Shown here piece by piece: positions 10,655 through 25,167 of a stretch of DNA of 64,000 bases; the first letter of the stretch is position 1, and the number at the start of each line of letters is the position of its first letter. Below the pieces are notes generated by a model. It made no database searches, was not told where the DNA came from, and saw nothing but the letters and a program-made list of their open reading frames with translations. The position numbers and the translations under genes were made by a program. Source of the stretch: Nitratireductor sp. ZSWI3 (GTDB lineage: Bacteria; Pseudomonadota; Alphaproteobacteria; Rhizobiales; Rhizobiaceae); assembly GCF_024655565.1 (NCBI RefSeq), contig NZ_JANKOF010000010.1:1-64000 (forward strand), written 5' to 3'.

Positions 10655-11911
10655 CTATTTGGCGACGTCCGCCTTTACCTCGGCCACTTCCTCCGCGCTC
10701 ATCTCGCCCACCGTGGTCACCGTGCCGTCCTTGATCTGCCAGAGACGGAACGGACCGGTGATGTCGCCATACTGGTCGAAGCCGACTGGTCCGATGACGC
10801 CTTCGTATTTGATCGGCTTGCCGTCCTTGATCAGCGCCAGCGCCTTCGCGAATTCGTCCTTGCCGGCGTGGACGACTTCGCCCCCCGCCGCGACCACTTC
10901 GGGGATAGCCGCCTTGATCGCTGCCGGATCGCCCTTGCCGGCCTTGGCGACGGCGAGGGCGACGATGGCGCCCGCGTCATAGGAGCGGTCCGCGGCCGGC
11001 GCATCGGGCTTGATGCCGCCTGAAAAGCTCTCGTAATTGGCGTAGAAATACTCCGTCGAGGCGGTCGGATTGGTGCCCGAGGAGGTGCCGTAGGCCTCGT
11101 TCAGGTACTTGGCGCCGACGGCCTCGATGAATTCTTCCGAATTCATGCCGTCGTTGAGCAGAAACTTCTGCGGGCCACCGCCCGAGATCCAGGCGCGCGC
11201 AATGGTGGCGCCGTCGACCGGGTAGCTCACGAGATAGAGCGCTTCCGGATCGCCCGCCATCGCCGCGCTGGCTTCCGAGGCATAGTTCGCCTGGCGCTCG
11301 TTGTAGGGGGTGACGGAGGTCACCGTGCCGCCGAGCTTTTCATAGGCGGCCTTGAATTCGCGCACCATGTTGACGCCGAAATCGTTGTTGACGTGGATGA
11401 TCGCCAGCTTCTTCAGCCCCTGGTCGAGCGCATATCTCGCCGCTGCAGTGCCTTGCAGCGCATCGGACGTGATGGTGCGGAAGAACACGCCGTTGGTCTT
11501 GCCGTCGCGACCGAGCGCCGTCAGCGTCGGCGAGGAGGACGCCGGCGAGACCTGCACGACGCCGGCAGCGGCCGTCACCGAGGTCAGGATCGGGATCGAC
11601 ACCGACGAGATGATGCCGCCGATGATGACCGGCACCTTCTTCACGTTGACGAGCTGGGTCGCCTGATCGACGGCGACATTGCCCTGGCTCTGACTGTCGC
11701 GCGTGTCGGTCACCAGCTTGCAGCCGTCGACGCCGCCCGCTTCGTTGAAGTCGCGGAAGGCCATCTCGACGGATTTGGCGCCCGCCTGACCGTACTGTCC
11801 GGCCGGTCCGGTCAGTTCCATGACCAGGCCGATGGTGATGTCGCAATCCTGCGCGGCCGCCGGGGCGACCAATCCCGCAAGCAGAGTGGTGAGCAGAAGC
11901 ATCTTCTTCAT
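10655..11911 (-). CDS. Branched-chain-amino-acid-type ABC transporter substrate-binding protein
   Basis: A 418-residue periplasmic binding protein of the LivJ/LivK/Leu-Ile-Val-binding type. It has a signal peptide (residues 1-20, cleaved at APAAA-Q) followed by the two-lobed type I fold, with the typical openings ITIGLVMELTGPAGQYGQ and VPVIIGGIISSVSIPI. It is co-directional with the aldo/keto reductase gene upstream (84-bp gap) and should serve the permease and ATPase genes transcribed divergently at 14.5-18.0 kb. The ligand is unknown, and the catabolic neighbours argue against assuming branched-chain amino acids. Confidence 0.9.
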   Translation of the reverse strand: MKKMLLLTTLLAGLVAPAAAQDCDITIGLVMELTGPAGQYGQAGAKSVEMAFRDFNEAGGVDGCKLVTDTRDSQSQGNVAVDQATQLVNVKKVPVIIGGIISSVSIPILTSVTAAAGVVQVSPASSSPTLTALGRDGKTNGVFFRTITSDALQGTAAARYALDQGLKKLAIIHVNNDFGVNMVREFKAAYEKLGGTVTSVTPYNERQANYASEASAAMAGDPEALYLVSYPVDGATIARAWISGGGPQKFLLNDGMNSEEFIEAVGAKYLNEAYGTSSGTNPTASTEYFYANYESFSGGIKPDAPAADRSYDAGAIVALAVAKAGKGDPAAIKAAIPEVVAAGGEVVHAGKDEFAKALALIKDGKPIKYEGVIGPVGFDQYGDITGPFRLWQIKDGTVTTVGEMSAEEVAEVKADVAK

Positions 11912-11995: not shown

Positions 11996-13045
11996 TCAGG
12001 CGGCTCCGGCGTTCAGGTTGTATTTCATGATCGACCCGTGGCGCCCGTGCCGATCGCGCTCCAGGTCGAACACGTCGCCCTCGATAGCGCTCGCCTGCCC
12101 CAGAACGGCATCGATCCCGGCGATGTCCTCCGCCGTCAGGGCAAGATCGGCGATGGCCAGATTCGAGGCCAGATGCGCGCGGTTGCGCGCCCCCACAATG
12201 GCGGCGGCCACCGCCGGCCGCTGCAGCATCATGGCGCTCGCAACGGTCGCGATGGTGCTGCCGTGGCGCCGGGCGACGGCATCCAGCCTCGACAGGAGCG
12301 CCTGGAACAGGTCCCAGCCGCCGAAATCGTCGATGATCAGCTTGTATTTGGTCAGCGAGCGGTTCTCGAGCGGCGCCACCGGTTCGGCGCCCCCCAGCCA
12401 GCGCTCGCTCAGGAAACCGCCCGCCACCGTGCCGTAGCAGAGCAGAGAAACGCCATGGCGCGCCGCAGCTTGCGCCATGTGCCTGGCGGGGCGGCCGTCG
12501 AGCAGGGAATACTGGACCTGCATCGACACCAGCGGCACGCCGCTTTCAATGATCTGCCGCATGTGGGCGGTGTCGAAATTGGTGGCGCCGAGCCTGTCGA
12601 TCTTGCCTGCCCGCTGCAGTTCCCCGAGCCAGTGCGCCGCGTCGAGCCACCCCGGCACTGCATAGTCCCACCAGTGGAACTGGACGAGATCGAGCCTCTC
12701 CTGGCCGAGCCGGCGCAGGGATTCCTCGATGATGCCGGCGACCGTGGCCTTGGTCAGTTTCGGCAACAGGTCGAGATCCGGCACGCATTTCGTGTGGATC
12801 TTGACGGCCTTGAGCGCATCGGTGCCGCGCAGATCCGCATAGTGCTTGCGGAAGCGGCCGATCATCTCCTCGACCCCGGTGTAGATGTCGGCGCAGTCGA
12901 AAGTGGTTATGCCGGCGTCGGCGCAGGCCACCATGTCGGCCACGGGATCCCCGCTTTGCGCCGCGCTGTGCCCGCTCGACATCTGCCAGCCGCCACGGAT
13001 GACACGGGAAATCTCATAGCCGGGGGCAAGCTCGATTCGGTGCAT
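11996..13045 (-). CDS. Aldo/keto reductase, stand-alone copy
   Basis: A 349-residue NAD(P)H-dependent TIM-barrel oxidoreductase. The catalytic tetrad is present: Asp50 and Tyr55 in FDCADIYTG, Lys86 in KIHTK and His124 in VQFHWWD. The C-terminal cofactor part includes AAIVGARN. It is clearly paralogous to the N-terminal domain of the fusion gene at 18013, sharing the QFHWW, GVTNFD/GATNFD and CYGT/AYGT-x-x-GGFLS-x-RWLG stretches. It starts 3 bases after the TIGR04076 gene stop. The substrate is unknown; an aldehyde or sugar lactol is plausible for the family. Confidence 0.92.
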   Translation of the reverse strand: MHRIELAPGYEISRVIRGGWQMSSGHSAAQSGDPVADMVACADAGITTFDCADIYTGVEEMIGRFRKHYADLRGTDALKAVKIHTKCVPDLDLLPKLTKATVAGIIEESLRRLGQERLDLVQFHWWDYAVPGWLDAAHWLGELQRAGKIDRLGATNFDTAHMRQIIESGVPLVSMQVQYSLLDGRPARHMAQAAARHGVSLLCYGTVAGGFLSERWLGGAEPVAPLENRSLTKYKLIIDDFGGWDLFQALLSRLDAVARRHGSTIATVASAMMLQRPAVAAAIVGARNRAHLASNLAIADLALTAEDIAGIDAVLGQASAIEGDVFDLERDRHGRHGSIMKYNLNAGAA

Positions 13046-13048
13046 GAA

Positions 13049-13402
13049 CTATTCGGTCCTCTTCAAGGGCACGGCCGTGGTGTCGGCGTGGCTGAAACGG
13101 CGCCTGCCGAGGCGCGTGATGCGCAGCCGCGACGCGCAGTTCGGATCGGGACAGGCCACCTCCGCATCGGTGGTCATCCAGTCGTTGTCATGGGTCGGCC
13201 GTTGCTTGGCGGCCAGGAGGGGCAGGACGGCGGCCAGCGAGTAGATCGAGAAGCCCTGGCCTGGCGGCAGATGGAGCATCTCGCCGCGCAGCTCGAAATG
13301 ATCACCGGGTTTTGCACCGCAGAAGATCGGCTGGCCCTCCGGCACCACCACGTCGACGCGCAGATCGTAGAGTTCGAAGCCGTCGTCTCTCCGCTCAGCC
13401 AT
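13049..13402 (-). CDS. TIGR04076 family protein
   Basis: A 117-residue small protein matching my memory of the TIGR04076 family: LYDLRVDVVVPEGQPIFCGAKPGDHFEL near the N-terminus, then LHLPPGQGFSIYSL and a late Cys pair in VACPDPNC. The conserved Cys residues could bind metal or be redox-active, but the activity is undescribed. The ATG at 13402 overlaps the end of the gntR-type gene by 8 bases, and the stop is 3 bases from the aldo/keto reductase start, so the three genes are translationally coupled. Confidence 0.78.
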   Translation of the reverse strand: MAERRDDGFELYDLRVDVVVPEGQPIFCGAKPGDHFELRGEMLHLPPGQGFSIYSLAAVLPLLAAKQRPTHDNDWMTTDAEVACPDPNCASRLRITRLGRRRFSHADTTAVPLKRTE

Positions 13403-14102
13403 AGCGCACCACCTTCTCCCGGGCATCGAGAGCGCCGCGAATGAGATCGAAGGAGCGGGTGATGTCCTGCGTCAGCGCCCGAACGGAGGCGTCCGCGTCG
13501 CGCCGTTCCATCGCCTCGATCAGCGCCCAGTGGAAATGCGTGGCTCGGATGTCGCGGTCCTCGTCGTGAATCTGCGCGGCCGCGCGCACATAGGGTCCCG
13601 ATTGCAGCCACAGGCTCTCGACCACCGGGATGAGGACGGCAGAGCCCGCCGCCCGGTAGATGTGGAAGTGGAAACTGTGATTGAGTTCGGACGTGGTGTG
13701 GGCCTTGTCCGGATCGTCGCTGCCGAAGGCGGCGTCGCAGCGTTCCGTCAGCGCGCGCAGGGTCTCGAAATCCGGCGCCGTCAATCGGCCGCTCGCCAGG
13801 GAGGTCAGCGCTCCTTCGACGAGAACCCGCGCTCGCGCCAGATCGTCCAGCCGCTCGCGGGTGATGAGCGGAACCCGCACCGAGCGGTTCGGCAGGGCCT
13901 CCAGCGCCTGTTCGGACACCAGCTGGCCGAGCGCCTCGCGCACCGGCATGGTGCTGGTGTCGAGCTTCGCGGCCAGATCCTGGATGCGCAGCACCGCCCC
14001 CGCATCGAACATGCCGTGCATCAGGGAGCGGCGCAACTCGGCATAGACACGATCCTGGAGGGTTTCGCGGCCGACCGGGGAAAGGGGGGAGCGGCTCACC
14101 AT
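13395..14102 (-). CDS. GntR family regulator with FCD ligand domain
   Basis: A 235-residue transcription factor. The winged helix occupies roughly residues 12-75 (LQDRVYAELRRSLMHG, then LAAKLDTSTMPVREALGQL, the recognition helix). An all-helical FCD effector domain follows, with likely metal-ligand His residues in NHSFHFHIYRAAG and ATHFHWALIEAM. The start is the ATG at 14102 behind AAAGG; a TTG at 14111 is an alternative. It heads the leftward operon and lies divergent from the ABC transporter operon, so it probably regulates both, with the effector being the imported substrate or a breakdown product. Confidence 0.93.
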   Translation of the reverse strand: MVSRSPLSPVGRETLQDRVYAELRRSLMHGMFDAGAVLRIQDLAAKLDTSTMPVREALGQLVSEQALEALPNRSVRVPLITRERLDDLARARVLVEGALTSLASGRLTAPDFETLRALTERCDAAFGSDDPDKAHTTSELNHSFHFHIYRAAGSAVLIPVVESLWLQSGPYVRAAAQIHDEDRDIRATHFHWALIEAMERRDADASVRALTQDITRSFDLIRGALDAREKVVRYG

Positions 14103-14173
14103 AAGAAGCAACCTTTCGACCGGTCCCGGGCGTCTGACCAGAGATTCGCCTCGCGCACGCTCCGGTAACGTCG

Positions 14174-14475: not shown

Positions 14476-14498
14476 GTTTGATCAAACATCATTGATCA
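14476..14498. promoter_or_regulatory. Candidate GntR/FCD operator
   Basis: GTTTGATCAAAC (14476-14487) is a perfect 12-bp palindrome. Its TGATCA core recurs 6 bases later at 14493-14498. The site lies about 20-40 bases before the start of the first ABC transporter gene and within the region shared with the divergent GntR regulator gene. Short palindromes in this position are typical for FadR/FCD regulators, but binding is inferred. Confidence 0.45.
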
Positions 14499-14516: not shown

Positions 14517-15332
14517 ATGCCGACCGATGTCGACCAGCAGCCGGGTGAGGAGCGCGCAGCCCAGGGCGGCATGGCGCTGATCCAGGTGCGCGACGTCGCC
14601 ATGCAGTTCGGTGGCTTGCGCGCGGTCGACGGCCTTTCCCTCACATTGCATCAAGGCGAGATGCTCGGGCTCATCGGCCCCAATGGCGCAGGCAAGACGA
14701 CGCTGTTCAACCTGATCGCGGGAAGCCTGAAGCCGACAGCCGGCGGCATCTTCATCGACGATCGGGATGTCTCCCACGAGGGCGCCGACCGGCGCATCGG
14801 CCACGGCGTCGGCCGCACGTTCCAAATCCCGCGCCCGTTTGCCGAGATGACCGTGCTCGAGAACGTGCTCACCGGCCGGCAGCACCAGGCCGGCGAGCAC
14901 ATCTGGATGAATTTCCTGCGCGGCGGGCAGGTGGCGCGGGAGGAACGGCAGGCCGTCGAGAAGGCGCGCGCGCTGCTCGACTTCGTGACCCTCTCGCATC
15001 TGGAGAGCGAGCCGGCGCGCGTGCTTTCCGGCGGGCAGCGCAAGCTGCTGGAGCTCGCCCGCATTCTGATGGCCGACCCGCGCGCAATCCTGCTCGACGA
15101 GCCGGCAGCCGGGGTCAACCCGTCCCTGCTCGAGGTGATCATAGAGCGGATCCGGTGGCTCAATGCCGATGGCAAATCGGTCCTGCTGATCGAGCACAAC
15201 ATGGACATGGTGGCGCGGCTCTGCAGCCGTGTCGTCGTGATGGCAGCCGGCCGCTACCTCACGGAAGGAACTCCCGACGAGGTGGTGCGGGACCCGGCGG
15301 TGATCGAGGCCTATCTGGGCGAGGCCGCATGA
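14517..15332 (+). CDS. ABC transporter ATP-binding protein, LivG type
   Basis: A 271-residue ATPase of a branched-chain-amino-acid-type importer. The Walker A GPNGAGKT is at residues 54-61, with the LivG-typical GRTFQIPRPFAEMTVLENV, the signature LSGGQRKLLELAR and the Walker B ILLDEPAAGVNP. The ATG at 14517 has AAGGA five bases upstream; an internal ATG at 14571 is also possible. It overlaps the next gene by ATGA and leads a five-gene operon ending in the AKR-RidA fusion. Confidence 0.94.
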   Translation: MPTDVDQQPGEERAAQGGMALIQVRDVAMQFGGLRAVDGLSLTLHQGEMLGLIGPNGAGKTTLFNLIAGSLKPTAGGIFIDDRDVSHEGADRRIGHGVGRTFQIPRPFAEMTVLENVLTGRQHQAGEHIWMNFLRGGQVAREERQAVEKARALLDFVTLSHLESEPARVLSGGQRKLLELARILMADPRAILLDEPAAGVNPSLLEVIIERIRWLNADGKSVLLIEHNMDMVARLCSRVVVMAAGRYLTEGTPDEVVRDPAVIEAYLGEAA

Positions 15333-16087
15333 GCGCCGCTCCGGCACCGCCGCCCGCGCTGGCGACACGAGACCTGGTCGCCGGCTACGAGCGCGATCTG
15401 CCGATCGTCCGCGGCATCGATTTTTCGGTAAGGCAGGGCGAATTTGTCGTGATCCTGGGCCCCAACGGCGCCGGCAAGTCGACCCTCGTGAAGGCGATTG
15501 CCGGGCTGGTTCCAATCCATTCCGGCAGCACCCATCTGGCGGGCGAGGACATCACCCTGTCGCCGGTGCAGGAGAAGGTGAGGCACGGTCTCGCCTTCGT
15601 GCCGCAAACGGAAAACATCTTCGCCACGCTGTCCATAAGGGAAAACCTGCAGCTCGCCGCCGACATCCTGCCCAGAGGCAGGCAGGCCGCGCAGATCGAC
15701 GAGGTCTACAGCCTCTTCCCCGACCTCGCGTCCCGACGCGGCGCGCGCGCCGGCAATCTTTCCGGCGGTCAGCGGCAGATGCTGGCGGTCGCCCGCGCGC
15801 TGGTCGTCAAACCGTCGGTGCTCATCCTCGACGAGCCTTCGGCAGGCCTCTCCCCGAAAATCGTCGGCGAGGTGTTTGCCCGCTTGAAGGCGCTCAATGG
15901 CGCCGGCATCACGATCGTGCTGGTGGAGCAGAACGTGAAGGCGGCGCTGGCCGTCGCCGATCGCGCGGTGATCCTCGTCGAAGGCAAGCTGCGTCACGAA
16001 GGCCCGGCCGCCACGCTTTCCAGCGACCCGATCGTCGGCGAGCTCTATCTCGGCGCACGCGCGCGCCAAGGGGAGAATGGTCGATGA
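15329..16087 (+). CDS. ABC transporter ATP-binding protein, LivF type
   Basis: A 252-residue second ATPase of the importer, starting at the ATG that overlaps the previous stop. The Walker A GPNGAGKST is near residues 44-52, FVPQTENIFATLSIRENL is the LivF-type Q-loop region, LSGGQRQML the signature and LILDEPSAGLSP the Walker B. It pairs with the LivG-type subunit to form the nucleotide-binding heterodimer. Confidence 0.94.
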   Translation: MSAAPAPPPALATRDLVAGYERDLPIVRGIDFSVRQGEFVVILGPNGAGKSTLVKAIAGLVPIHSGSTHLAGEDITLSPVQEKVRHGLAFVPQTENIFATLSIRENLQLAADILPRGRQAAQIDEVYSLFPDLASRRGARAGNLSGGQRQMLAVARALVVKPSVLILDEPSAGLSPKIVGEVFARLKALNGAGITIVLVEQNVKAALAVADRAVILVEGKLRHEGPAATLSSDPIVGELYLGARARQGENGR

Positions 16088-16998
16088 ACCCGCAGGTGCT
16101 GATCGATGGGCTGATGGCGGGTGCCCTTTACGGGCTCGGCGCCATCGGCGTGACGCTGACCTACTCGATCCTGCGTTTTGCCAATTTCGCCCACAGCGAG
16201 CTCCTGACCTTCGGCGCCTATGCGGCTCTGGCGCTGAGTTCCGCGCTCGGCGCTCTCTCGGCGGGTCTTCTGGAACCCATCGCGCCCTTCTCGTTCGGCT
16301 GGGCCCTGCCGCTCGCCGGCCTGGTCGCGGTGGCGCTGACCGGCCTTCTGGCACTCGCCGTCGATGCGATCCTCTTCGGCCGGCTGCGCCACAGGCGCAG
16401 TTCCATCATCGTCATGGTCATGGCGAGCTTCGGCGCCGCCCTGACACTGCGCAGCCTGATCGAGTTCGCGTTTACTTCTAAGCCGGCTTACTTCACCCGC
16501 GAACTGCAGATCGCCCTGCCGCTCGGACAGGGGATGCGGGCGACTCCCGACCAGCTCTTATCGCTGGCGCTTGCCGCCATACTCGTGATCGGCGTGCATC
16601 TGCTTCTGACACGCACGGCCATCGGGCGCTCCATGCGCGCGGTCAGCGAGAACCAGGCGCTGGCGGGCGTCGTGGGCGTCGACGTCCGCAGGGTCATCCG
16701 GGTCGTCTGGCTGCTCGGGGCAGCGCTCGCCTGCATCGCCGGCATCATGTCCGGCCTTCTCGTGCAGTTGCGTCCCTATATGGGCTTCGACCTGCTCCTG
16801 CCGCTTTTCGCGGCGGCGATTCTCGGCGGTATCGGCAGCGTTCCCGGCGCCATGCTGGCCGGCCTGATCGTCGGACTGGCCGAGGCGGCGACGGTGCAGC
16901 TCGTCGGCGCGGAGTGGCGAACGGCGGTCGCCTTCGTCATCCTCGTGCTGGTGCTGCTGTTGCGCCCGCAGGGTCTTCTCGGGAGGGCACAGGCATGA
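16084..16998 (+). CDS. ABC transporter permease, LivH type
   Basis: A 304-residue inner-membrane permease with about eight hydrophobic segments. The opening LIDGLMAGALYGLGAIGVTLTYSI and the C-terminal EAA-like region (AAAILGGIGSVPGAMLAGLIVGL) are characteristic of LivH. It overlaps its neighbours by four bases on both sides. With the LivM-type subunit it should form the translocation channel for the ligand captured by the binding protein at 10.7-11.9 kb. Confidence 0.93.
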   Translation: MNPQVLIDGLMAGALYGLGAIGVTLTYSILRFANFAHSELLTFGAYAALALSSALGALSAGLLEPIAPFSFGWALPLAGLVAVALTGLLALAVDAILFGRLRHRRSSIIVMVMASFGAALTLRSLIEFAFTSKPAYFTRELQIALPLGQGMRATPDQLLSLALAAILVIGVHLLLTRTAIGRSMRAVSENQALAGVVGVDVRRVIRVVWLLGAALACIAGIMSGLLVQLRPYMGFDLLLPLFAAAILGGIGSVPGAMLAGLIVGLAEAATVQLVGAEWRTAVAFVILVLVLLLRPQGLLGRAQA

Positions 16999-18008
16999 GC
17001 GTGGAACTCGTCGCCTATGGCTGCTTCTTCCTGACCATGGCCCTCACCTACGCCATCATGTGCCTGGGGCTGAACCTTCAATGGGGGCAGACCGGCCTGT
17101 TCAACGTCGGCATTGCCGGTTTCGTTGCCGTCGGCGCCTATGTTTCGGCGCTGCTGACGACGCCCGACGTCGCCGATCGCCTGGGAGGCTTCGGCCTGCC
17201 GATGCCTCTCGGCTGGCTGGGCGGCTCCCTGTCGGCGGCGCTGATCGCCTATCTCGTCGGCCGGCTGACCATAAGGCTGCGGGCGGATTATCTGGCCATC
17301 GCCACCTTCGGCATCGCCGCCGCCGTGCAGCTTCTTGCGCTCAACCTCGAGCCCGTCACCGGCGGGCCGTTCGGCATCGGCTTCATTCCACGCCCCTTTG
17401 CCGGCCGGGCCGGCGACCCGCTTTTGTTCAGCGTTCTGAACCTCGCATTGGTGGCCGCCGTTGTGCTCCTTCTCTATATGGCATTGGAGCGCCTTGTCCG
17501 CAGTCCGTGGGGCCGTGTGCTGAGGGCTATCCGCGAGGACGAGCCGGCCGCCCTGGCGCTCGGCAAGAACGCAAACCGGTTCCGGTTGCAGGCCTTCGCC
17601 ATCGGCGGCGGCATCATGGGGCTGGCCGGTGCCGTCCAGGCGCATTTCATAGGGTTCATCGCGCCGGAAAACTATCTGCCGATGCTGACCTTTCAGGTCT
17701 GGGCGATGCTCATCGTCGGCGGTTCCGGCAACAACCGCGGCGCCATTTTGGGCGCCGTGCTGGTGTGGGGCATCTGGGCGCTCTCCGCCGCCTTCATCTC
17801 CGCCACGTTCGAGCCCGGCCAGCAGGCGCGCGCCGCTTCGCTGCAGATTGCGCTGATCGGGGTGGCGATCTGCGCCGTCCTGTTGCTGAGGCCGCAGGGC
17901 GTACTCGGCGAGGCGCGCGTGGTGTCGCGGCACCTCCTCGAAGCCGTTGGAAGCCGAAAAATCCGCGTCGCCACCGACGCGCAACCTGTCAGACAGCCGC
18001 CGGAGTGA
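16995..18008 (+). CDS. ABC transporter permease, LivM type
   Basis: A 337-residue permease. The LivM hallmarks are LGLNLQWGQTGLFNVGIAGFVAVGAY near the N-terminus, TIRLRADYLAIATFGIAAA in the middle and WAMLIVGGSGNNRGAILGA towards the C-terminus. The ATG overlaps the LivH stop. The cytoplasmic tail after RPQGVLGEARV is longer and polar. It is followed 4 bases later by the AKR-RidA fusion gene, so import and the first enzymatic step are likely cotranscribed. Confidence 0.93.
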   Translation: MSVELVAYGCFFLTMALTYAIMCLGLNLQWGQTGLFNVGIAGFVAVGAYVSALLTTPDVADRLGGFGLPMPLGWLGGSLSAALIAYLVGRLTIRLRADYLAIATFGIAAAVQLLALNLEPVTGGPFGIGFIPRPFAGRAGDPLLFSVLNLALVAAVVLLLYMALERLVRSPWGRVLRAIREDEPAALALGKNANRFRLQAFAIGGGIMGLAGAVQAHFIGFIAPENYLPMLTFQVWAMLIVGGSGNNRGAILGAVLVWGIWALSAAFISATFEPGQQARAASLQIALIGVAICAVLLLRPQGVLGEARVVSRHLLEAVGSRKIRVATDAQPVRQPPE

Positions 18009-18012
18009 AACC

Positions 18013-19494
18013 ATGAGCGACCAGACCCTTCTTGCGACCGGCCCGGAAACCGGCCGACTGTCCGACCGGCTGACCTTGCGCCGCCTCATCTGCGGCCTGT
18101 GGCAGGTGGCTGATCTGGAGAAGGACGGCGCGCCGCTTGATCCCGATGCGGCGGCCGATGCTCTTCAGGCTTATGCCGACGCCGGCTTCGACACCTTCGA
18201 CATGGCCGACCATTACGGCAGCGCGGAGCTGATCACCGGCCGCCTGCTGTCCCGCTATCGCGACGATGCACGGCGGCCGCGCGCCTTCACCAAATGGTGC
18301 CCGGAACCCGGACCGATGACCGCCGAAGTGGTGCGCGCCGGGGTGATGGAGCGGCTTGCGCGGCTGGGGGTCGAGAAGGTCGATCTCCTGCAGTTCCACT
18401 GGTGGACCTTCGAGCACCCGGCCTGGCTCGATGCGCTGCACGAGATGACCCGCTTGCGCGAGGAGGGGCTGATCGGCGAGATCGGCGTCACCAATTTCGA
18501 TGCGGCTCATCTGGCCGTCGCGCTGGCGGACGGCATTCCCCTCGTCAGCAACCAGGTTTCGTTTTCGCTGGTCGATCGACGCGCGGCGGGGCCGCTCTCG
18601 GACCTTTGCCGCGCGACGGGCGTCAGGCTCCTTGCCTACGGCACGCTGTGCGGGGGCTTTCTTTCGAACAGATGGCTCGGCAAGGAGGAGCCGGCAGAAA
18701 TCCCCGACTGGAGCCGACAGAAATACAAGCGCTTCATAGACACGGCCGGCGGCTGGGAGGCCTTTCAGGGCATCCTTTCGGCCGCCGACCGGATCGCCAG
18801 GAAACACCGTGTGTCGATCTCCAACGTAGCGACGCGCTGGGTCCTGGAGCATGAATCCGTCGCGGCGGCGATCATCGGCGCCCGGCTCGGCGAGAGCGAA
18901 CACCGCGCCGACAACCTGAAGATCTTCGATTTCGCATTCGACGCGGAAGACCATGAACGGCTGGAGGCGGCTTTCGCCGCAACACGGCCGGTGCCGGGCG
19001 ATTGCGGCGACGAATACAGGCGGCCGCCTTACCTGACGGCCTCGGGCGATCTGAGCCATCATCTCCAGGCGATTCCCTCCGTCTTCACCGCCGAGCCGGT
19101 GCCCGGCCGCAAGAACCGGATGCGCGTTTCCTCAGGCAGCGTCTGGGAAGAATTAGCCGGCTATAGCCGTGCAATGCGCGTCGGTGATTCGATCCGTGTG
19201 TCAGGCACGACGGCCACGCATGGCAGTGACCGCTGCGTCGCCCCGGGCGATCCGGGCGCCCAGGCCACCTACATTCTCGACAAGATCGCCGCCGCGATCC
19301 GGGCGCTTGGCGGATCGATGGACGACGTGGTGCGCACGCGCATCTACCTGCGCGATGCGGCTCATTGGGAACCGGTGTCGCGGGTGCACGGCCGGGTGTT
19401 CGCGCAGATACGCCCGGCCAACACGCTGATCGAGGCCGGCAATCTGGTCGGCGAATACTTGGTCGAGATCGAGGCCGAGGCCGTCGTCGATTGA
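18013..19494 (+). CDS. Aldo/keto reductase fused to a RidA/YjgF-family domain
   Basis: A 493-residue two-domain protein. Residues about 1-345 are an aldo/keto reductase with an intact tetrad (Asp63 and Tyr68 in FDMADHYG, Lys94, His129 in QFHWW). Residues about 375-493 are a YjgF/YER057c/UK114 (RidA) domain with DKIAAAIRALGGSMDDVVRT and the C-terminal LVGEYLVEIEAEAV. The RidA catalytic Arg, normally in a PAR-S/T context, is Asn470 here (PANTLIEAG), so classical imine deaminase activity is doubtful. It is the last gene of the transporter operon, 4 bases after the permease stop. The fusion suggests sequential handling of one metabolite, possibly with the RidA part as a ligand-binding or isomerase-like domain. 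Confidence 0.93.
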   Translation: MSDQTLLATGPETGRLSDRLTLRRLICGLWQVADLEKDGAPLDPDAAADALQAYADAGFDTFDMADHYGSAELITGRLLSRYRDDARRPRAFTKWCPEPGPMTAEVVRAGVMERLARLGVEKVDLLQFHWWTFEHPAWLDALHEMTRLREEGLIGEIGVTNFDAAHLAVALADGIPLVSNQVSFSLVDRRAAGPLSDLCRATGVRLLAYGTLCGGFLSNRWLGKEEPAEIPDWSRQKYKRFIDTAGGWEAFQGILSAADRIARKHRVSISNVATRWVLEHESVAAAIIGARLGESEHRADNLKIFDFAFDAEDHERLEAAFAATRPVPGDCGDEYRRPPYLTASGDLSHHLQAIPSVFTAEPVPGRKNRMRVSSGSVWEELAGYSRAMRVGDSIRVSGTTATHGSDRCVAPGDPGAQATYILDKIAAAIRALGGSMDDVVRTRIYLRDAAHWEPVSRVHGRVFAQIRPANTLIEAGNLVGEYLVEIEAEAVVD

Positions 19495-19602: not shown

Positions 19603-19664
19603 ATTCCAAAAATTAGAGCGGGATGCGGGCGGAAAACCGCTTCACACTTTTCCTCATCCCGCTC
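19603..19664 (-). terminator. Intrinsic-terminator-like repeat at the end of iorB
   Basis: GAGCGGGATG (19616-19625) and CATCCCGCTC (19655-19664) form a perfect 10-bp stem with a smaller internal GCGG-AAAA-CCGC hairpin. Reading leftward, the stem is followed by TAATTTTTGG, a T-rich tract. The right arm overlaps the iorB stop codon. The sequence resembles a terminator-type repeat common in Rhizobiales. Confidence 0.7.
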
Positions 19665-21210
19665 AGTCCGCGTCCAGAGTAGCGATGGTCTTCAGCGCGC
19701 CGTCGAGCATCGTTCCCTTCTCGTCCTTCAGCGCTGCCTCGCGCAGCCTGCGAAGCCAATCTGCCGCGTCGGGACGGCCTTCCAGCGGCTTCAGGCCGGA
19801 CAGGACCCGGTCGAACTTGGAATGCGCCCGCACATGCGTGTCGCTGTAGCCCTTGATCAGGCGGCGGCAGTTCAGGATCTCGACCGCCAGCGCATAATCC
19901 TTCGGGGCCGTGGCCAGCGCCAGCGCATACCAGCGTTCCAGATGCGCCCGCTCCACCTGATGTCGCAGCAGCGAGCGGCGCCAGGGCCGCAGGGTTCCGA
20001 TCAGCCAGAGAGAGCCGAAGCCCAGCAGGCTGTCGGTGCGAATGCGGCGGCCGCGGTTGATGCGCCGGTCGATCCACCCCGCCAGCGCCGGCCGTCCCTC
20101 GATGAAAAGTCCGAGGCGCGCCGGCAACGTCCCGCAGAGCTCCTCGACGCGCGGATGGAAAAACTCCGTCACCTGCAGGACATTCTCGCCGCCGACATTC
20201 ATCTCCCTGCGAATGCGCAGGTCGCGCGCGGTGCGTGTTTTGAGGTCGGCGACACGCAGGATATCGTCGTAGCACATGGCGTTGGCCAGGTGCTTGGCAG
20301 CCGCGGTGGAAAGCGCATGCCCGTGTTCCTCGCCATCCAGTTTCAATGCCTGGTCGACCCGGTCCAGATACTCCGCGCCATAGACAGGATCCTGGTAGTC
20401 GACCACCTTGCGCAGGCCGGCAAGAACCATCGCGCGGACGGGTTCCGGGTAGGCGCCTGCACGAGCCGTCAGCGCATTCCATCGCGCAACGAGCCGCTCC
20501 GGACCCCGCACCGCAATGCCTTTCGGGGCGGCCGCCCCGGCAGCGACGGCGGCGCCTTCTGCTTCGGCACCCGCGGCAGCCCGCTCATAGGCCATGCCGA
20601 AGGCCGCCAGGCTGGCCTTCACGCCGCGGCCCGACGCCCGGATGGTCTCTTCGTAGCTCTCCCGCGGGAAAGGCAGGGCCCCCGAACCGGCCAGGGCGCC
20701 GAACAGGCTGGCGGAGATGACAGATCCTGCCTCGACCGCGATCTTCTCCATGTCGAAGGCGACGTAACGGCTCGCGGCCCGGCGGGCGCTTTCATGGACC
20801 GTTTCGGCATCGGCGCGGCCGTCCCCGGGTTCGATCTTCTCCGAGACGGCGGCGATGCGGTGAGACGAGGCGATGAGCGTGGTGCGATCCGGCGTCACGA
20901 AGCCGCGCATGACGGCGCGTCCGGCCTCCATCAGCTCGGCGGCGATCAGGATGTCCACATCGCCCTGGGCCGGGGAGAGCGCGAAAACCGGCCGGCGGCC
21001 CGTGTCGGGGCACATCTCGACATAGTAGATCGTCGCGCCGGTGCGCTGCGCGACACCGGCCACCGAGGTGGATTGCGCCAGATAGCCGTTGCGCTCCGCG
21101 ACGTCGGTGATCCAGTTGGTCAGCACGCCGCCACCCTGCCCCCCGACCGCCAGCGCGGCGAGCTTGATGATCGTCTGGCCGCTGTGCCTGTTCTTGCCGT
21201 TCGTGACCAT
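19663..21210 (-). CDS. iorB: Indolepyruvate-type 2-oxoacid oxidoreductase, beta-like subunit (long form)
   Basis: A 515-residue protein. The N-terminal ~200 residues are the pyruvate ferredoxin oxidoreductase gamma-type domain (LAALAVGGQGGGVLTNWI, then QSTSVAGVAQRTGATIYYVEM). The rest is a long helical extension (DUF6537-like) found in the long-form subunit of aerobic proteobacteria, much longer than archaeal IorB (about 200 residues). With IorA it would convert an aryl 2-oxoacid such as indolepyruvate to the acyl-CoA and CO2. The ATG at 21210 lies 10 bases after the iorA stop; a GTG one codon earlier is possible. Confidence 0.88.
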   Translation of the reverse strand: MVTNGKNRHSGQTIIKLAALAVGGQGGGVLTNWITDVAERNGYLAQSTSVAGVAQRTGATIYYVEMCPDTGRRPVFALSPAQGDVDILIAAELMEAGRAVMRGFVTPDRTTLIASSHRIAAVSEKIEPGDGRADAETVHESARRAASRYVAFDMEKIAVEAGSVISASLFGALAGSGALPFPRESYEETIRASGRGVKASLAAFGMAYERAAAGAEAEGAAVAAGAAAPKGIAVRGPERLVARWNALTARAGAYPEPVRAMVLAGLRKVVDYQDPVYGAEYLDRVDQALKLDGEEHGHALSTAAAKHLANAMCYDDILRVADLKTRTARDLRIRREMNVGGENVLQVTEFFHPRVEELCGTLPARLGLFIEGRPALAGWIDRRINRGRRIRTDSLLGFGSLWLIGTLRPWRRSLLRHQVERAHLERWYALALATAPKDYALAVEILNCRRLIKGYSDTHVRAHSKFDRVLSGLKPLEGRPDAADWLRRLREAALKDEKGTMLDGALKTIATLDAD

Positions 21211-21220
21211 CACCGCTTTC

Positions 21221-23374
21221 TCAAGCCTCCGCGAAGATCAGGCGGCGCTTCTCACGGCGCCCCTGCAGGAAGCTGGTGATGCCGCGCCGCAGACCATTCA
21301 TGAAACGGTCCCAACGGCCGGGATTGTGCACCACGTCGGCCCGGTAGAAGGACGGGCAGAGCACGGCGGCATCCGCCACCTCACCGCAATTGCCGCAGCC
21401 GACGCATGTGTGGTCGATCGCAGCCACCGGATCGTCGCGCAGCGGATCGTCCAGCGTCTTCACCGACAGCGAGGGACAGCCCGAAAGCCGCATGCAGGCG
21501 TGATCGCCCGTGCACACGTCCTCGTCGACCCCGAAGCGCGGCTTGACCACCCGTTCGCCACCGGCGATCGCCTTGGCGGTCAGCGGCTTCTCGCGCCGCT
21601 GCCGGTTCAGCATGCATTCCGACGAGGCGACGATCACCTTCGGCCCCTTCTCCTGCGTCGTCAGCGCCTCGCGCAGTGCCGCGCGCACCCGCGTGACGTC
21701 GTAGGTGCGATCGATGTGGCGCACCCATTTGACGCCCATGCCCTTCACCGCATCGGTGATCGGGTGCTTGGTGGACTTGGTGCGGTTTTCGGCGCGCGAC
21801 GACAGGATGTCCTGTCCGCCGGTGGCGGCCGAATAGTAGTTGTCGACCACGACGATCACACCGTCGTTCTGGTTGAAGACGGCGTTGCCGATGGAGGAGG
21901 TGAGGCCGTTGTGCCAGAAGCCGCCGTCGCCGACGAAGGAGATCGAGCGCCGCTTGGCATTCGGCGCGTTGAAGGCCGAGGCCGAGGCAGGGCCGAGCCC
22001 GTAGCCCATGGTGGTGGCGCCGAGCTCGAAGGGCGGCATGATGGAGAACAGGTGGCAGCCGATATCCGAGGCGATGTGGTGAGGGCCGAGCTCCTGCTCT
22101 ATCAGCTTGGTGGCGGCGAAGATCGGCCGCTCGGGGCATCCCGTGCAGAAGCCCGGCGGACGACCGGGCACCACCTTGGCGAGGTCGGCGGCAAGCGCGT
22201 TGTCGCCGGACGCGTTCGGCGCCAGAAACTGGGCGGAGAGAAGCTCAGGCGCATGGGCGCGCAGATAGGCGCTCAGCCCGTCGAGCATCACCTGGCCGGT
22301 ATATTCGCCGGCCATCGGCAGCATCTCCTTGCCGAGGATGCGCGTGTCGAGCTCGGCCTTGTGCATCATTGCGGCGATGGCCTGCTCGAGATAGTTGGGC
22401 TGTCCCTCCTCGACGACCAGAACCGAATCCTTGTCTTCGCAAAAGGCGATGACCTCGTCCTCGACCAGCGGATAGACCGCGTTGAGCACATAGAGCGGCA
22501 CATCCGTCTCGCCGTAGACGTCAGCCAGTCCCAGACGCTGCAGGGCACGGATCACCGCATTGTACATGCCGCCTTGCAGGATGATGCCAGCTTTCCCGGA
22601 TGTCGGCCCGAAGAACTCGTTGATCTTGCGCGAGCGGATGAAATCCACCGCCGCCGGCATGCGCTTTTCCACTTTCTCCTTCTCGTGCAGGAAGGACGCG
22701 GGCGGCAGGACGATGCGGTTGGTGTCGCGACGCGGCGCCTCCAGGGCTTCCGCAACAGTCATGGTCGGGCGCTTGTTGTCCTTGGTCTCGAAGCTGCCGG
22801 TCACATGGCAGCTGCGGATGCGCACCATCAGCATGACCGGCGTGTTCGAGGCTTCCGACAGTTCGAAACCGTCCTCGACCGCCTTGACGATGGAGGGCAG
22901 GTTGGCGCGCGGATCGAGCAGCCAGACCTGGCTCTTCATGGCAAAGGGGTGGCTGCGCTCCTGCATGATGGAGGAGCCTTCGCCATAGTCTTCGCCAACG
23001 ATGATGAGGGCGCCGCCGGTGACACCGCCGGAGGCGAGATTGGCCAGCGCGTCCGAGGCCACGTTGAGACCGACGGCCGACTTGAACGTGCAGGCGCCGC
23101 GGATGGGATAATGCACGGAAGCGGCGAGCATGGCCGTGGCCGTGGCCTCGGAGGCACTTGCCTCGAAATGCACGCCGAGCTCGCCGAGGATTTCCTGGGC
23201 GTCGGCCAGCACGTCCATCAGGTGGCTGATGGGCGCGCCCTGATACCCGCCGACATAGCCGACGCCGCATTGCAGAAGCGCCTTGGTGATGGCGAGAATC
23301 CCTTCTCCGTGGAAGGTTTCCCCCGCCCCGAAACGAAGCTTCTCCACCTCCTTCGCGAAAGAACGTTCAGCCAT
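21221..23374 (-). CDS. iorA: Indolepyruvate-type 2-oxoacid oxidoreductase, alpha-like subunit with ferredoxin domain
   Basis: A 717-residue thiamine-diphosphate enzyme. It has an N-terminal pyrimidine-binding domain (GYQGAPISHLMDV; ASASEATATAMLAASVHYP), a middle segment with Cys410 and Cys413 in CTGCPERP, a ThDP/Mg domain (GDGGFWHNG at 482-490, VVDNYYSAATGG near 509-520) and a C-terminal two-cluster ferredoxin domain. The second cluster motif is complete (Cys657, 660, 663, 673). The first reads Cys621-x2-Asp624-x2-Cys627-x5-Cys633: one Cys is replaced by Asp. The enzyme is expected to oxidise an aryl pyruvate with CoA. It is cotranscribed with iorB. Confidence 0.92.
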   Translation of the reverse strand: MAERSFAKEVEKLRFGAGETFHGEGILAITKALLQCGVGYVGGYQGAPISHLMDVLADAQEILGELGVHFEASASEATATAMLAASVHYPIRGACTFKSAVGLNVASDALANLASGGVTGGALIIVGEDYGEGSSIMQERSHPFAMKSQVWLLDPRANLPSIVKAVEDGFELSEASNTPVMLMVRIRSCHVTGSFETKDNKRPTMTVAEALEAPRRDTNRIVLPPASFLHEKEKVEKRMPAAVDFIRSRKINEFFGPTSGKAGIILQGGMYNAVIRALQRLGLADVYGETDVPLYVLNAVYPLVEDEVIAFCEDKDSVLVVEEGQPNYLEQAIAAMMHKAELDTRILGKEMLPMAGEYTGQVMLDGLSAYLRAHAPELLSAQFLAPNASGDNALAADLAKVVPGRPPGFCTGCPERPIFAATKLIEQELGPHHIASDIGCHLFSIMPPFELGATTMGYGLGPASASAFNAPNAKRRSISFVGDGGFWHNGLTSSIGNAVFNQNDGVIVVVDNYYSAATGGQDILSSRAENRTKSTKHPITDAVKGMGVKWVRHIDRTYDVTRVRAALREALTTQEKGPKVIVASSECMLNRQRREKPLTAKAIAGGERVVKPRFGVDEDVCTGDHACMRLSGCPSLSVKTLDDPLRDDPVAAIDHTCVGCGNCGEVADAAVLCPSFYRADVVHNPGRWDRFMNGLRRGITSFLQGRREKRRLIFAEA

Positions 23375-23399
23375 CAGGGGTCTCCCATTGCTCGCCTGT

Positions 23400-23497
23400 G
23401 CTCTTGAGCATCGGCCCGAAAACCGGAAAGCACGATGCGCAGATTCGAAGACTTACAGCGTCCTTTGTGCGTCCTAATGGGCGCACGGCGCTGTAAA
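23400..23497 (-). repeat. Rhizobiales intergenic repeat, copy B
   Basis: Almost the whole gap between iorA and the MarR gene is repeat-like. 23444-23492 is an inverted counterpart of 19495-19542, and the adjoining GAGCATCGGCCCGAAAACCG resembles another common Rhizobiales intergenic module. The CAGCG...CGCTG arms could form a long hairpin, which may terminate MarR transcription before iorA or give processing of a joint message. Confidence 0.6.
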
Positions 23498-23514
23498 GGC
23501 CGTGCCGCCGGCGG

Positions 23515-23997
23515 TTAGAAGTCATGCTTGCGGATGTTGCCGAGGATCTTCTGAAGCGTTCCGATGAAGGCCGCGTATTCCGCATCGTCGATTCCCTGGA
23601 ACATCTGCTCAAAGGCCGCATGCATCGCCGGCCAGGCCCGGTTGAACTCTTCCCGGCCGCTGTCGGTCAGGAAGATCTTGCGGGCACGACTGTCGTCCTG
23701 GCAGGCCTCACGCCGGACAAGCCCCTGTGCTTCCAGTGCATCGAGCGTCCGGCTCATCGTCGATTGCTCGATGACGGTGTAGACCGACAGTTCGTTGATC
23801 GTCATGCCGTCGCCGACGGCAAGCACCGCCAAAGCGCGCACCTGCGGAACCGTCAGCTCCTGCTTGCGCAAGTCGAGCCGCAGGCTGGCGTTGTAGCGCC
23901 CCATGATCCGGTTCATCAGATAGGGCGCGAATTGTTGCAGGCCGATCTGCCCCAGCGTCGCGATGCGCAGAGTCTTGTTGTCGGAACGCTGATCCAT
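23515..23997 (-). CDS. MarR family transcriptional regulator
   Basis: A 160-residue MarR protein. The winged helix is recognisable at LRKQELTVPQVRALAVLA, then MTINELSVYTVIEQSTMSRTLDALEAQGLV as the recognition region and DDSRARKIFLTDSG as the wing. The start is the ATG at 23997; a TTG directly before it is possible. It lies between the cyclase gene (45 bases upstream, same strand) and iorAB (140 bases downstream), so it probably controls this block in response to an aromatic acid or related ligand. Confidence 0.92.
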   Translation of the reverse strand: MDQRSDNKTLRIATLGQIGLQQFAPYLMNRIMGRYNASLRLDLRKQELTVPQVRALAVLAVGDGMTINELSVYTVIEQSTMSRTLDALEAQGLVRREACQDDSRARKIFLTDSGREEFNRAWPAMHAAFEQMFQGIDDAEYAAFIGTLQKILGNIRKHDF

Positions 23998-24042
23998 CAA
24001 ACTGTTACCGCTCGCTTCGTTGTTCGCCGTGCCATGGCAGGT

Positions 24043-24831
24043 TTAATTCCTTGCCACCAGCGCCAGAACGCGACAGGGGCTGCCGGTGCCGTGCTCGATC
24101 TTGAGCGGGGCAGCGATCAGGATCGCGCCTTTCGGCGGCAGCTTGTCGAGATTCGCCAGGCTGGCGAGGCCGTATCGATTGGCCTGGTGCATCAGGTTGT
24201 GGGCCGGGAAGGGCGGCTCCATGCCGCCGGCCTGGCCGGCATCGGTGCCGATCGTCTCGCTGCCCCAGCCGACGATCCCCTTGTCGATCAGATAGCGGAT
24301 CGCCTCCGGCGTCGGTCCTGGAGAATGCGGGCCGTTCTCGTCGGCATTCAGGAAATCCGCCTCGGAGCCGTTGCGCTTGTACCAATCGCTGCGCAGCACG
24401 ACCCACTCACCCGCCTCGATCTCGCCATGCTCGGCTTCCCACGCCTCGATGTGGTCCACCGTCAGGAGAAAATCGTTGTTCTCGGCCACTTCCCGCGAGC
24501 AATCGATCACATTGACCGGCGCGACGAAGTTCTGCGGGGCAATGGTGTCCGTCGCCCCGTCGGGAAAGTCGCGCCCGGTGATCCAGTGGATCGGTGCATC
24601 AAAATGCGTTCCCGAGTGCTCGCCGAGCTTGAGCCAGTTCCAGGCCCACCAGGGACCCTTGTCGTCATACTCGGAGATCTTGTGTATTTCGATCTTCGGC
24701 GTATCGACCGCCAGCTCCGGCGGCAGCTTGAGAAGCGGCGTGTTGGGGCCGAGCACCGCGGAAAGATCAACCACTTCGATCTTGCCGGAAAGCAGGTCAC
24801 CGGCGAATTGAGCAAGGACGGACTGACTCAT
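24043..24831 (-). CDS. Cyclase-family metal hydrolase (isatin hydrolase / kynurenine formamidase-like)
   Basis: A 262-residue member of the cyclase family (PF04199). The metal motif HSGTHFDAPIH (His72, His76, Asp78, His82) is complete. The C-terminal half carries GWGSETIGTDAGQAGGMEPP and HNLMHQANRYGL, which remind me of Mn-dependent isatin hydrolases more than of KynB. The ATG at 24831 has a very strong GGAGGAG. Such enzymes open a cyclic amide or cleave an N-formyl group. Beside an indolepyruvate-type oxidoreductase, a step in indole or tryptophan-derived aromatic breakdown is plausible. The exact substrate is not determined by sequence. Confidence 0.88.
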   Translation of the reverse strand: MSQSVLAQFAGDLLSGKIEVVDLSAVLGPNTPLLKLPPELAVDTPKIEIHKISEYDDKGPWWAWNWLKLGEHSGTHFDAPIHWITGRDFPDGATDTIAPQNFVAPVNVIDCSREVAENNDFLLTVDHIEAWEAEHGEIEAGEWVVLRSDWYKRNGSEADFLNADENGPHSPGPTPEAIRYLIDKGIVGWGSETIGTDAGQAGGMEPPFPAHNLMHQANRYGLASLANLDKLPPKGAILIAAPLKIEHGTGSPCRVLALVARN

Positions 24832-25167
24832 CTTTTCTCCTCCCAGGTCGGCATGGACGCAACGGACGCCACGCTTCTTTGCTGTCAGCCTAAAAGGAAA
24901 TGAATGCATATGCAATTATCTTTGTGAGCGTGCCGTTTTGGCCGCATGCACAAGGGTGCACATGCCTCGGTCCTGAAGTGCGCGTTTTCCCATCGGTGGC
25001 CTTAATCAGCTGGCCGCGTAAAACAATATGCAGATGAATAAAACCGGAAGCCAGCGAGAACATCCGTACGAATGGATGAACGGATGAACAAGCCTTCTCT
25101 CCTCGTCCGAAAGCCCTTCGCCCAACGGGTGGATGCCCGGTCGGTTTTCCTGTGATATTGAGCACCT
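24832..25167. other. 336-bp gap between the cyclase gene and holA
   Basis: No gene is supported here. It contains the upstream region of the cyclase gene with the TGCATATGCA palindrome (listed separately) and a short direct repeat of CGGATGAA. In many Rhizobiales lptE would lie immediately upstream of holA. I find no recognisable lptE remnant. Confidence 0.6.
24903..24916. promoter_or_regulatory. Candidate MarR operator upstream of the cyclase gene
   Basis: A perfect 10-bp palindrome TGCATATGCA (24905-24914) within AATGCATATGCAAT lies about 75 bases upstream of the cyclase start. Its AT-rich symmetry and size fit a MarR-family site and a MarR gene is immediately downstream. Binding is inferred. 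Confidence 0.4.

Follow-up and report, generated by a model that had tools for sequence, protein, structure and literature searches.

If a Rid domain lacks the arginine that marks the RidA-type imine deaminases, does it still carry out chemistry of its own, and what could it do when fused to an aldo/keto reductase (AKR)? Such a fusion is encoded in the 64,000-nucleotide stretch of Nitratireductor sp. ZSWI3 DNA analysed here (the window; contig NZ_JANKOF010000010.1), the features of which are collected in Table 1. A sequence-only reading of the gene had noted an intact AKR tetrad and an Asn in place of the RidA Arg, and had proposed that the Rid domain acts on a different intermediate or serves the AKR as a ligand-binding or allosteric module.

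Table 1. Features of the window in and around the AKR-Rid fusion gene.
Feature	Position	Strand	Basis or remark
Liv-type substrate-binding protein	10655..11911	-	similarity to solved binders
Second AKR (AKR2), sister clade of fused AKR, without Rid domain	11996..13045	-	profile match, tree
TIGR04076 family protein	13049..13426	-	54.4 bits against cut-off 33
GntR/FCD regulator	13395..14111	-	PF00392, PF07729
Palindrome GTTTGATCAAAC, candidate operator in gntR/livG divergent promoter	14476..14487		42/47 regions
livG-like ATPase	14517..15332	+	profile matches
livF-like ATPase	15329..16087	+	4-base overlap with livG
livH-like permease	16084..16998	+	PF02653
livM-like permease	16995..18008	+	4 nt before fusion start
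AKR-Rid fusion gene	18013..19494	+	493 aa; AKR 24-320, conserved AKR C-terminal loop 328-351, Rid domain about 367-492
Rid domain (residues 367-493)	19111..19491	+	Pfam PF01042; AlphaFold model
Arg386 codon, TdcF Gln19 position, candidate substitute anion binder	19168..19170	+	110/110 fusions; clade signature
Asn470 codon AAC at RidA Arg105 position	19420..19422	+	alignment; 110/110 fusions

By translation, the fusion ORF starts with the ATG at 18013 and its stop codon ends at 19494. Pfam profile searches matched residues 24-320 to Aldo_ket_red (7.5e-57) and residues 381-492 to Ribonuc_L-PSP/Rid (PF01042; 2.9e-21), the latter with 76.2 bits against a cut-off of 27.3 and over profile positions 8-121 of 121. 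The full-length model, a monomer with a pLDDT of 92.6, has the AKR fold; its best matches are 4xk2, 7utf and AKRtyl, and all 50 PDB matches listed are AKRs or AKR-like oxidoreductases. Single-domain AKRs (AKRtyl, 4xk2, 7utf from deoxynivalenol detoxification, and AKR11B4) share the fold and the tetrad with the fusion, but they have no Rid domain and are about 20-26% identical among the 50 matches listed. The tetrad is indeed intact, with Asp63, Tyr68, Lys94 and His129 kept in 110/110 fusions; NAD(P)H as cofactor and the reaction direction of the fused AKR are presumptive. In a tree without an outside root, the fused AKR pairs with AKR2 as its sister clade, and seven further AKRs from this genome fall outside the pair (99/100); one row of this tree, L051_AKR2, is the fusion itself taken twice and is to be disregarded. 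Mean conservation is highest in the AKR C-terminal loop (0.97 for residues 328-351), followed by the linker (0.79), the AKR (0.78) and the Rid domain (0.76).

The Rid domain, modelled separately as a monomer with AlphaFold (residues 358-493, pLDDT 96.7), has 3i7t as its nearest solved fold (TM 0.82/0.94, 42% identity). When aligned with E. coli RidA, TdcF and RutC, Asn470, in the context R-P-A-N-T-L, falls on Arg105 of RidA/TdcF, just as had been read. The same Asn is found in 110/110 fusions (105 of them distinct; the rows are close relatives from two overlapping genome collections), which rules out a one-off mutation, chance or a sequencing error. The Arg105 by which RidA/Rid1-3 imine deaminases are recognised is thus absent from every fusion.

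In a tree of 124 Rid domains, the fusion domain groups inside a 36-row clade with Rv2704 (PDB 3i7t; support 100/100). Arg105 occurs in none of the 30 scored clade rows, which have A (9), N (7), T (5), C (4), S (3), M (1) or L (1) at this position; the other six clade rows are further fusions, all with Asn. Loss of Arg105 as an event peculiar to this protein is ruled out by this clade-wide pattern, and since absence is the rule in this branch, a missing Arg105 is unsurprising in itself. The sequence-only reading was therefore correct that the Arg is gone, but it overlooked that the loss is general in the branch. Rv2704, which we take to be a Rid6 protein, resembles the fusion domain in having an Arg at the Gln19 position, a His at the Tyr91 position and a conserved Glu120, and like other Rid6-type proteins (NCBI YjgF_YER057c_UK114_like_6) it has the Rid fold without an Arg at 105. 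In contrast, the 3i7t chain consists of one Rid domain and has Thr at the Arg position, whereas the fusion is AKR-joined with Asn fixed. Similarly, E. coli RidA and TdcF share the Rid fold and the equivalents of Tyr17, Gly31 and Glu120, but they lie outside the clade, and the fusion differs from them in its AKR and in the replacement of Arg105, Asn88, Asn56 and Pro114.

According to PMC4433059, Rid4-7 are without this Arg; its position is variable in Rid5 and Rid6, and Rid6 proteins keep Tyr/Phe17 and Glu120. The fusion shows these Rid6-type traits (Asn470, Tyr384 as Y/F, Glu485), which are traits that do not separate Rid6 from Rid5. The domain would thus be Rid6-type, a label resting on the traits of PMC4433059 and on our own assumption about Rv2704. 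That this branch lacks Arg105 was already known, and the part specific to the fusion is the fixed Asn470, as the position is variable (A/N/T/C/S) among other clade members. In a wider, non-random sample, 69/119 scored Rid sequences are without Arg105; 123 rows were aligned, of which 119 remained once rows gapped in key columns and the duplicate of the window's gene had been dropped, and one gene was entered twice (as L139 and L194). Twelve Rid genes were found in the window's own genome, six of them without Arg105, the fusion included.

Seven conserved pocket residues are listed for TdcF (Tyr17, Gly31, Asn56, Asn88, Arg105, Pro114 and Glu120; PMC1884159), and four of the seven positions, rather than the one noted in the sequence-only reading, are changed in the alignment with the fusion (N56 to K424, N88 to S456, R105 to N470 and P114 to V479). 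Across the 110 fusions, Gly398 (= Gly31) and Glu485 (= Glu120) are strictly kept, and the Tyr17 equivalent, Tyr384, is Y in 95 and F in 15. The Asn56 equivalent is Lys in 106 and Arg in four, that of Asn88 is Ser in 102 and Ala in eight, and that of Pro114 is Ile in 69, Val in 38 and Ala in three. Residues invariant in 110/110 are Asn470, Gly398, Glu485, Arg386, Arg443 and His459. The mean majority share of the Y17, G31, N88, R105 and E120 equivalents is 0.96, compared to 0.76 for random five-position sets, of which 1.5% of 100,000 scored as high; this test omits the N56 and P114 equivalents, and the mean of all seven is 0.91. The conserved pocket positions therefore argue for a working site, and the Rid domain is probably functional, to judge from what remains of its pocket. 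In TdcF, Asn88 orients Arg105 (PMC1884159), and since its equivalent is also replaced (Ser456), both the Arg105 clamp and its support are gone.

A conserved pocket could also belong to an allosteric sensor through which a ligand or product of the pathway controls the AKR, and the Rid fold is known to bind small acids in its intersubunit cleft (PMC1884159). There is no direct sign of such a sensor, however, and the invariant Glu485 corresponds to the ligand-contacting Glu120 of TdcF (PMC1884159), so that we regard it as quite unlikely. Of the two roles proposed in the sequence-only reading, a purely allosteric module is less favoured because the pocket positions are better conserved than the remaining domain, with which ligand binding is still compatible. 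With Arg105 truly absent, either a role outside 2-imino acids or some service to the AKR is the most likely outcome.

One such service would be structural: the Rid domain would mainly be a scaffold for trimerisation, setting out three AKR barrels, with no chemistry of its own. Arg441, which by the AtRidA spacing presumably corresponds to K136 of that protein, is kept in 109/110 fusions, as is Thr471, and Glu487 is E in 106 and D in four. The AtRidA residues matched by Arg441, Glu487 and Thr471, namely K136, E182 and S166, make trimer contacts (PMC4960622), and the fusion protein is probably trimeric, judging by these kept interface residues. Additionally, no deaminase activity of a Rid4-7 protein is known from the part of PMC8113886 covered, as a scaffold would allow. 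Nevertheless, a scaffold has no obvious need for Asn470, Glu485, His459, Arg386 and Gly398 to be fixed in 110/110 fusions, and we consider it unlikely as the main role of the domain.

If an arginine elsewhere in the pocket had taken over from Arg105, the domain could have remained an ordinary 2-imino-acid deaminase. Arg386, two residues past the pocket Tyr, occupies the position of TdcF Gln19, and neither the fusions nor the clade show any other residue there; the invariant Arg443 is a second candidate for the Arg105 role. In the non-random wider sample, 31/34 sequences with Arg at the Gln19 position are without Arg105, compared to 38/85 of those without Arg there (Fisher test, 1.4e-6). However, all 36 clade rows of the 124-row tree have this Arg and only three rows outside the clade do. 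Because the tree thus shows essentially a single inherited change, the p-value is no evidence of independent covariation, and repeated replacement of Arg105 by Arg386 is ruled out. Arg386 may partly replace Arg105, to go by its conservation in the alignments. A fully retained 2-imino-acid deaminase is very doubtful, as the Asn88 equivalent is also gone and the tested Rid4-7 proteins are reported inactive in the covered part of PMC8113886.

Within the run livG, livF, livH and livM, each gene overlaps the next by four bases, and the fusion is presumably the last gene of a co-transcribed livGFHM operon. Related loci were taken as the best 80 of 565, from named records, a set that favours close relatives; 69 of these 80 include 7.5 kb or more of sequence before the fusion. 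All four Liv genes are present in 66/69 of them, AKR2 and the TIGR04076 gene together in 62/69, all eight partner genes in 57/69 and none in 2/69. Two main layouts occur among the 80, and in 21/80 the Liv proteins are merely 39-57% identical to those of the window. In clusterings, every additional neighbour family was confined to a minority of loci, and inspection of five odd loci did not point to a substrate. Overall, the cassette is apparently a dedicated uptake-and-catabolism gene set under joint regulation. The solved relatives of its binding protein are named as Leu/Ile/Val-type, amino-acid-type or general binders and do not single out a substrate. Similarly, no solved structure matched the TIGR04076 protein with a meaningful E-value; its gene adjoins AKR2 even at loci without the fusion (L145, L146, L147 and L156). 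Downstream of the fusion, the window has genes for indolepyruvate oxidoreductase-like beta (POR + DUF6537) and alpha subunits, a MarR regulator and a cyclase-family protein (19663-24915). The oxidoreductase and cyclase are ruled out as pathway genes, as the oxidoreductase is present at 1/70 loci with at least 5.5 kb downstream among the best 80 of 565; at this single locus, in Nitratireductor pacificus (L039), the cyclase and MarR genes accompany it.

Regulation of the cassette may involve a short palindrome, GTTTGATCAAAC, which was first found by counting 8-mers common to the gntR/livG regions. These genes are divergent and close in 46/80 loci (best 80 of 565), which with the window gives 47 regions. 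The palindrome is present in 42 of the 47 at no more than two mismatches and exactly in 30, and in 0/47 shuffled regions (the shuffles keep base composition only); many loci have it within the conserved flank AAGTTTGATCAAACATCA. In the window it lies about 30 bp before livG, and the exact copy is unique in the genome, three other places differing by one base. A few known GntR-type patterns showed no excess over shuffles in the gntR/livG regions. Because only 2 of 51 other loci (other layouts, fusion-less or plasmid) have a copy at no more than one mismatch, the palindrome belongs to the first layout. The GntR protein may bind this candidate operator.

If the Rid step were indispensable to the cassette, cassettes without the fusion would not be expected. 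An order-level search, which scored the three best candidates per genome and may thus have missed some second AKRs, found the fusion in 43/397 genomes, the window's own included; in one genome it is in two pieces on two contigs. An AKR2-like match lies within 10 kb of the fusion in 38 of the 43, on another contig in two, and is absent at the threshold in three. A class-level draw gave the fusion in 8/289 genomes, again including the window's own. Additionally, 16 genomes have an AKR2-like match without the fusion, and nine of the 12 such loci retrieved have AKR2 beside Liv genes, so that the Rid step is not essential to these cassettes. The simplest account, on an unrooted tree, is that the fusion was added to a pre-existing AKR2 cassette. 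A scan of hand-picked neighbours found a DAO-family oxidoreductase at only 3/12 fusion-less loci. Free Rid genes beside cassettes are a weak candidate for the unfused form, being present at 8/95 loci scanned; the 12 fusion-less loci account for two of the eight, and in one of these two (L155) the free Rid gene has Asn at the Arg position. Two of the fusion-less cassettes have a small gene between AKR2 and the binding protein (L145:6790-7314 and L148:7123-7551), with a weak DUF4440 similarity below the curated cut-off.

The 124-row tree also identifies the three closest free Rid relatives of the fusion domain. Both of the two sister genes examined (L129 and L132) lie between methylmalonate-semialdehyde dehydrogenase (MMSDH) and acyl-CoA dehydrogenase genes, and the one in L132 has 3-hydroxyisobutyryl-CoA hydrolase and 3-hydroxyisobutyrate dehydrogenase (HIBADH) genes nearby, i.e., genes of valine breakdown, a pathway with no obvious imine step. 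This setting, together with the change of four of the seven canonical pocket residues, would suit a Rid domain that catalyses another reaction of the same pathway, such as isomerisation, tautomerisation, or lactone or amide hydrolysis; nothing positive points to any of these named reactions, however, and we hold the idea to be rather improbable. Elsewhere, a Rid6-type gene lies among BKACE, class III aminotransferase and FMN oxidoreductase genes (L130:5037-9727), in what looks like a separate nitrogen-compound pathway. In Antarctobacter (L157), the cassette is missing around a fusion 56% identical to that of the window. ABC transporters of amino-acid and polyamine type flank this fusion, and genes for a glutamine synthetase family protein, an N-formylglutamate amidohydrolase and an isochorismatase-family protein are nearby, a setting that offers a clue towards an amine substrate.

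The reading that we favour, by analogy and at somewhat below an even chance, is a relay in which the Rid domain frees a carbonyl from an imine or enamine other than a 2-imino acid and the fused AKR reduces that carbonyl. The Arg105-less Rid6-type domain and the AKR would act in sequence within one protein. The first would hydrolyse or tautomerise its substrate with Glu485, Tyr384, Gly398 and the invariant His459, and Asn470/Ser456 would have replaced the Arg105-Asn88 clamp because, in this proposal, no carboxylate stands beside the imine carbon to be held. The freed aldehyde or ketone would then be reduced by the fused AKR before the Schiff base re-forms. Catalysis, substrate class and relay are all putative here. 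The more specific version, in which the Rid6-type domain is an Arg105-less imine/enamine hydrolase using Glu485, His459, Asn470 and perhaps Arg386 on carboxylate-free substrates, in a deaminase-reductase relay with the AKR within a dedicated cassette, is, in our view, somewhat unlikely.

We lean towards the relay because the pocket is conserved above the domain average, the AKR tetrad is invariant and the AKR fold is confidently modelled; because the fusion follows livM by 4 nt in an eight-partner cassette with a common palindrome; and because the neighbours of Rid6-type genes (MMSDH/acyl-CoA dehydrogenase, aminotransferase with BKACE, and polyamine-type ABC transporters) suit reactive carbonyls or amine breakdown. 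In its proposed logic, the relay resembles E. coli RutC and the semialdehyde reductase of the rut pathway, which is not an AKR: an enamine gives a carbonyl, which is then reduced. RutC has been coupled to a carbonyl reductase in an assay, a working precedent, but it is a separate protein that retains the Arg and has 3-aminoacrylate as its substrate (PMC8113886). Similarly, the role predicted for a Rid6 protein of a nicotine cluster is removal of an enamine that, going by its name, lacks a carboxylate (PMC7688666). Against the relay, the R104A variant of RutC is inactive (PMC8113886), and the covered parts of PMC8113886 and PMC4433059 report no tested Rid4-7 protein with deaminase activity, few having been tested (PMC5619798). 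There is no imine-producing enzyme among the conserved neighbours of the fusion loci, cassettes without the fusion exist, and the sister Rid genes sit in valine breakdown.

A 2015 paper called the biochemical activities and roles of Rid4-7 entirely unknown (PMC4433059), and in 2021 deaminase activity was still not reported for them (PMC8113886). If true, an Arg105-less hydrolase relay would be the first function for any Rid4-7 subfamily within the literature covered. No description of an AKR-Rid fusion was found in the literature searched or among the matches listed, and the only Rid-domain fusions mentioned in the covered part of PMC4433059 are of Rid domains with each other. A fusion in a conserved gene set is therefore a handle on a Rid branch without known function, and the fixed reductase fusion, transporter, regulator and candidate operator together make the question of Rid4-7 function testable.

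Matches also occur in 18 plasmid records; in 13 of them the gene is listed, under the name aldo/keto reductase, and in five no gene is listed. Two Inquilinus limosus records have fusions that share 89% identity with one another and 90-93% with the fusion of a record titled Mycobacterium sp. KBS0706 (L047), the species label of which is doubtful.
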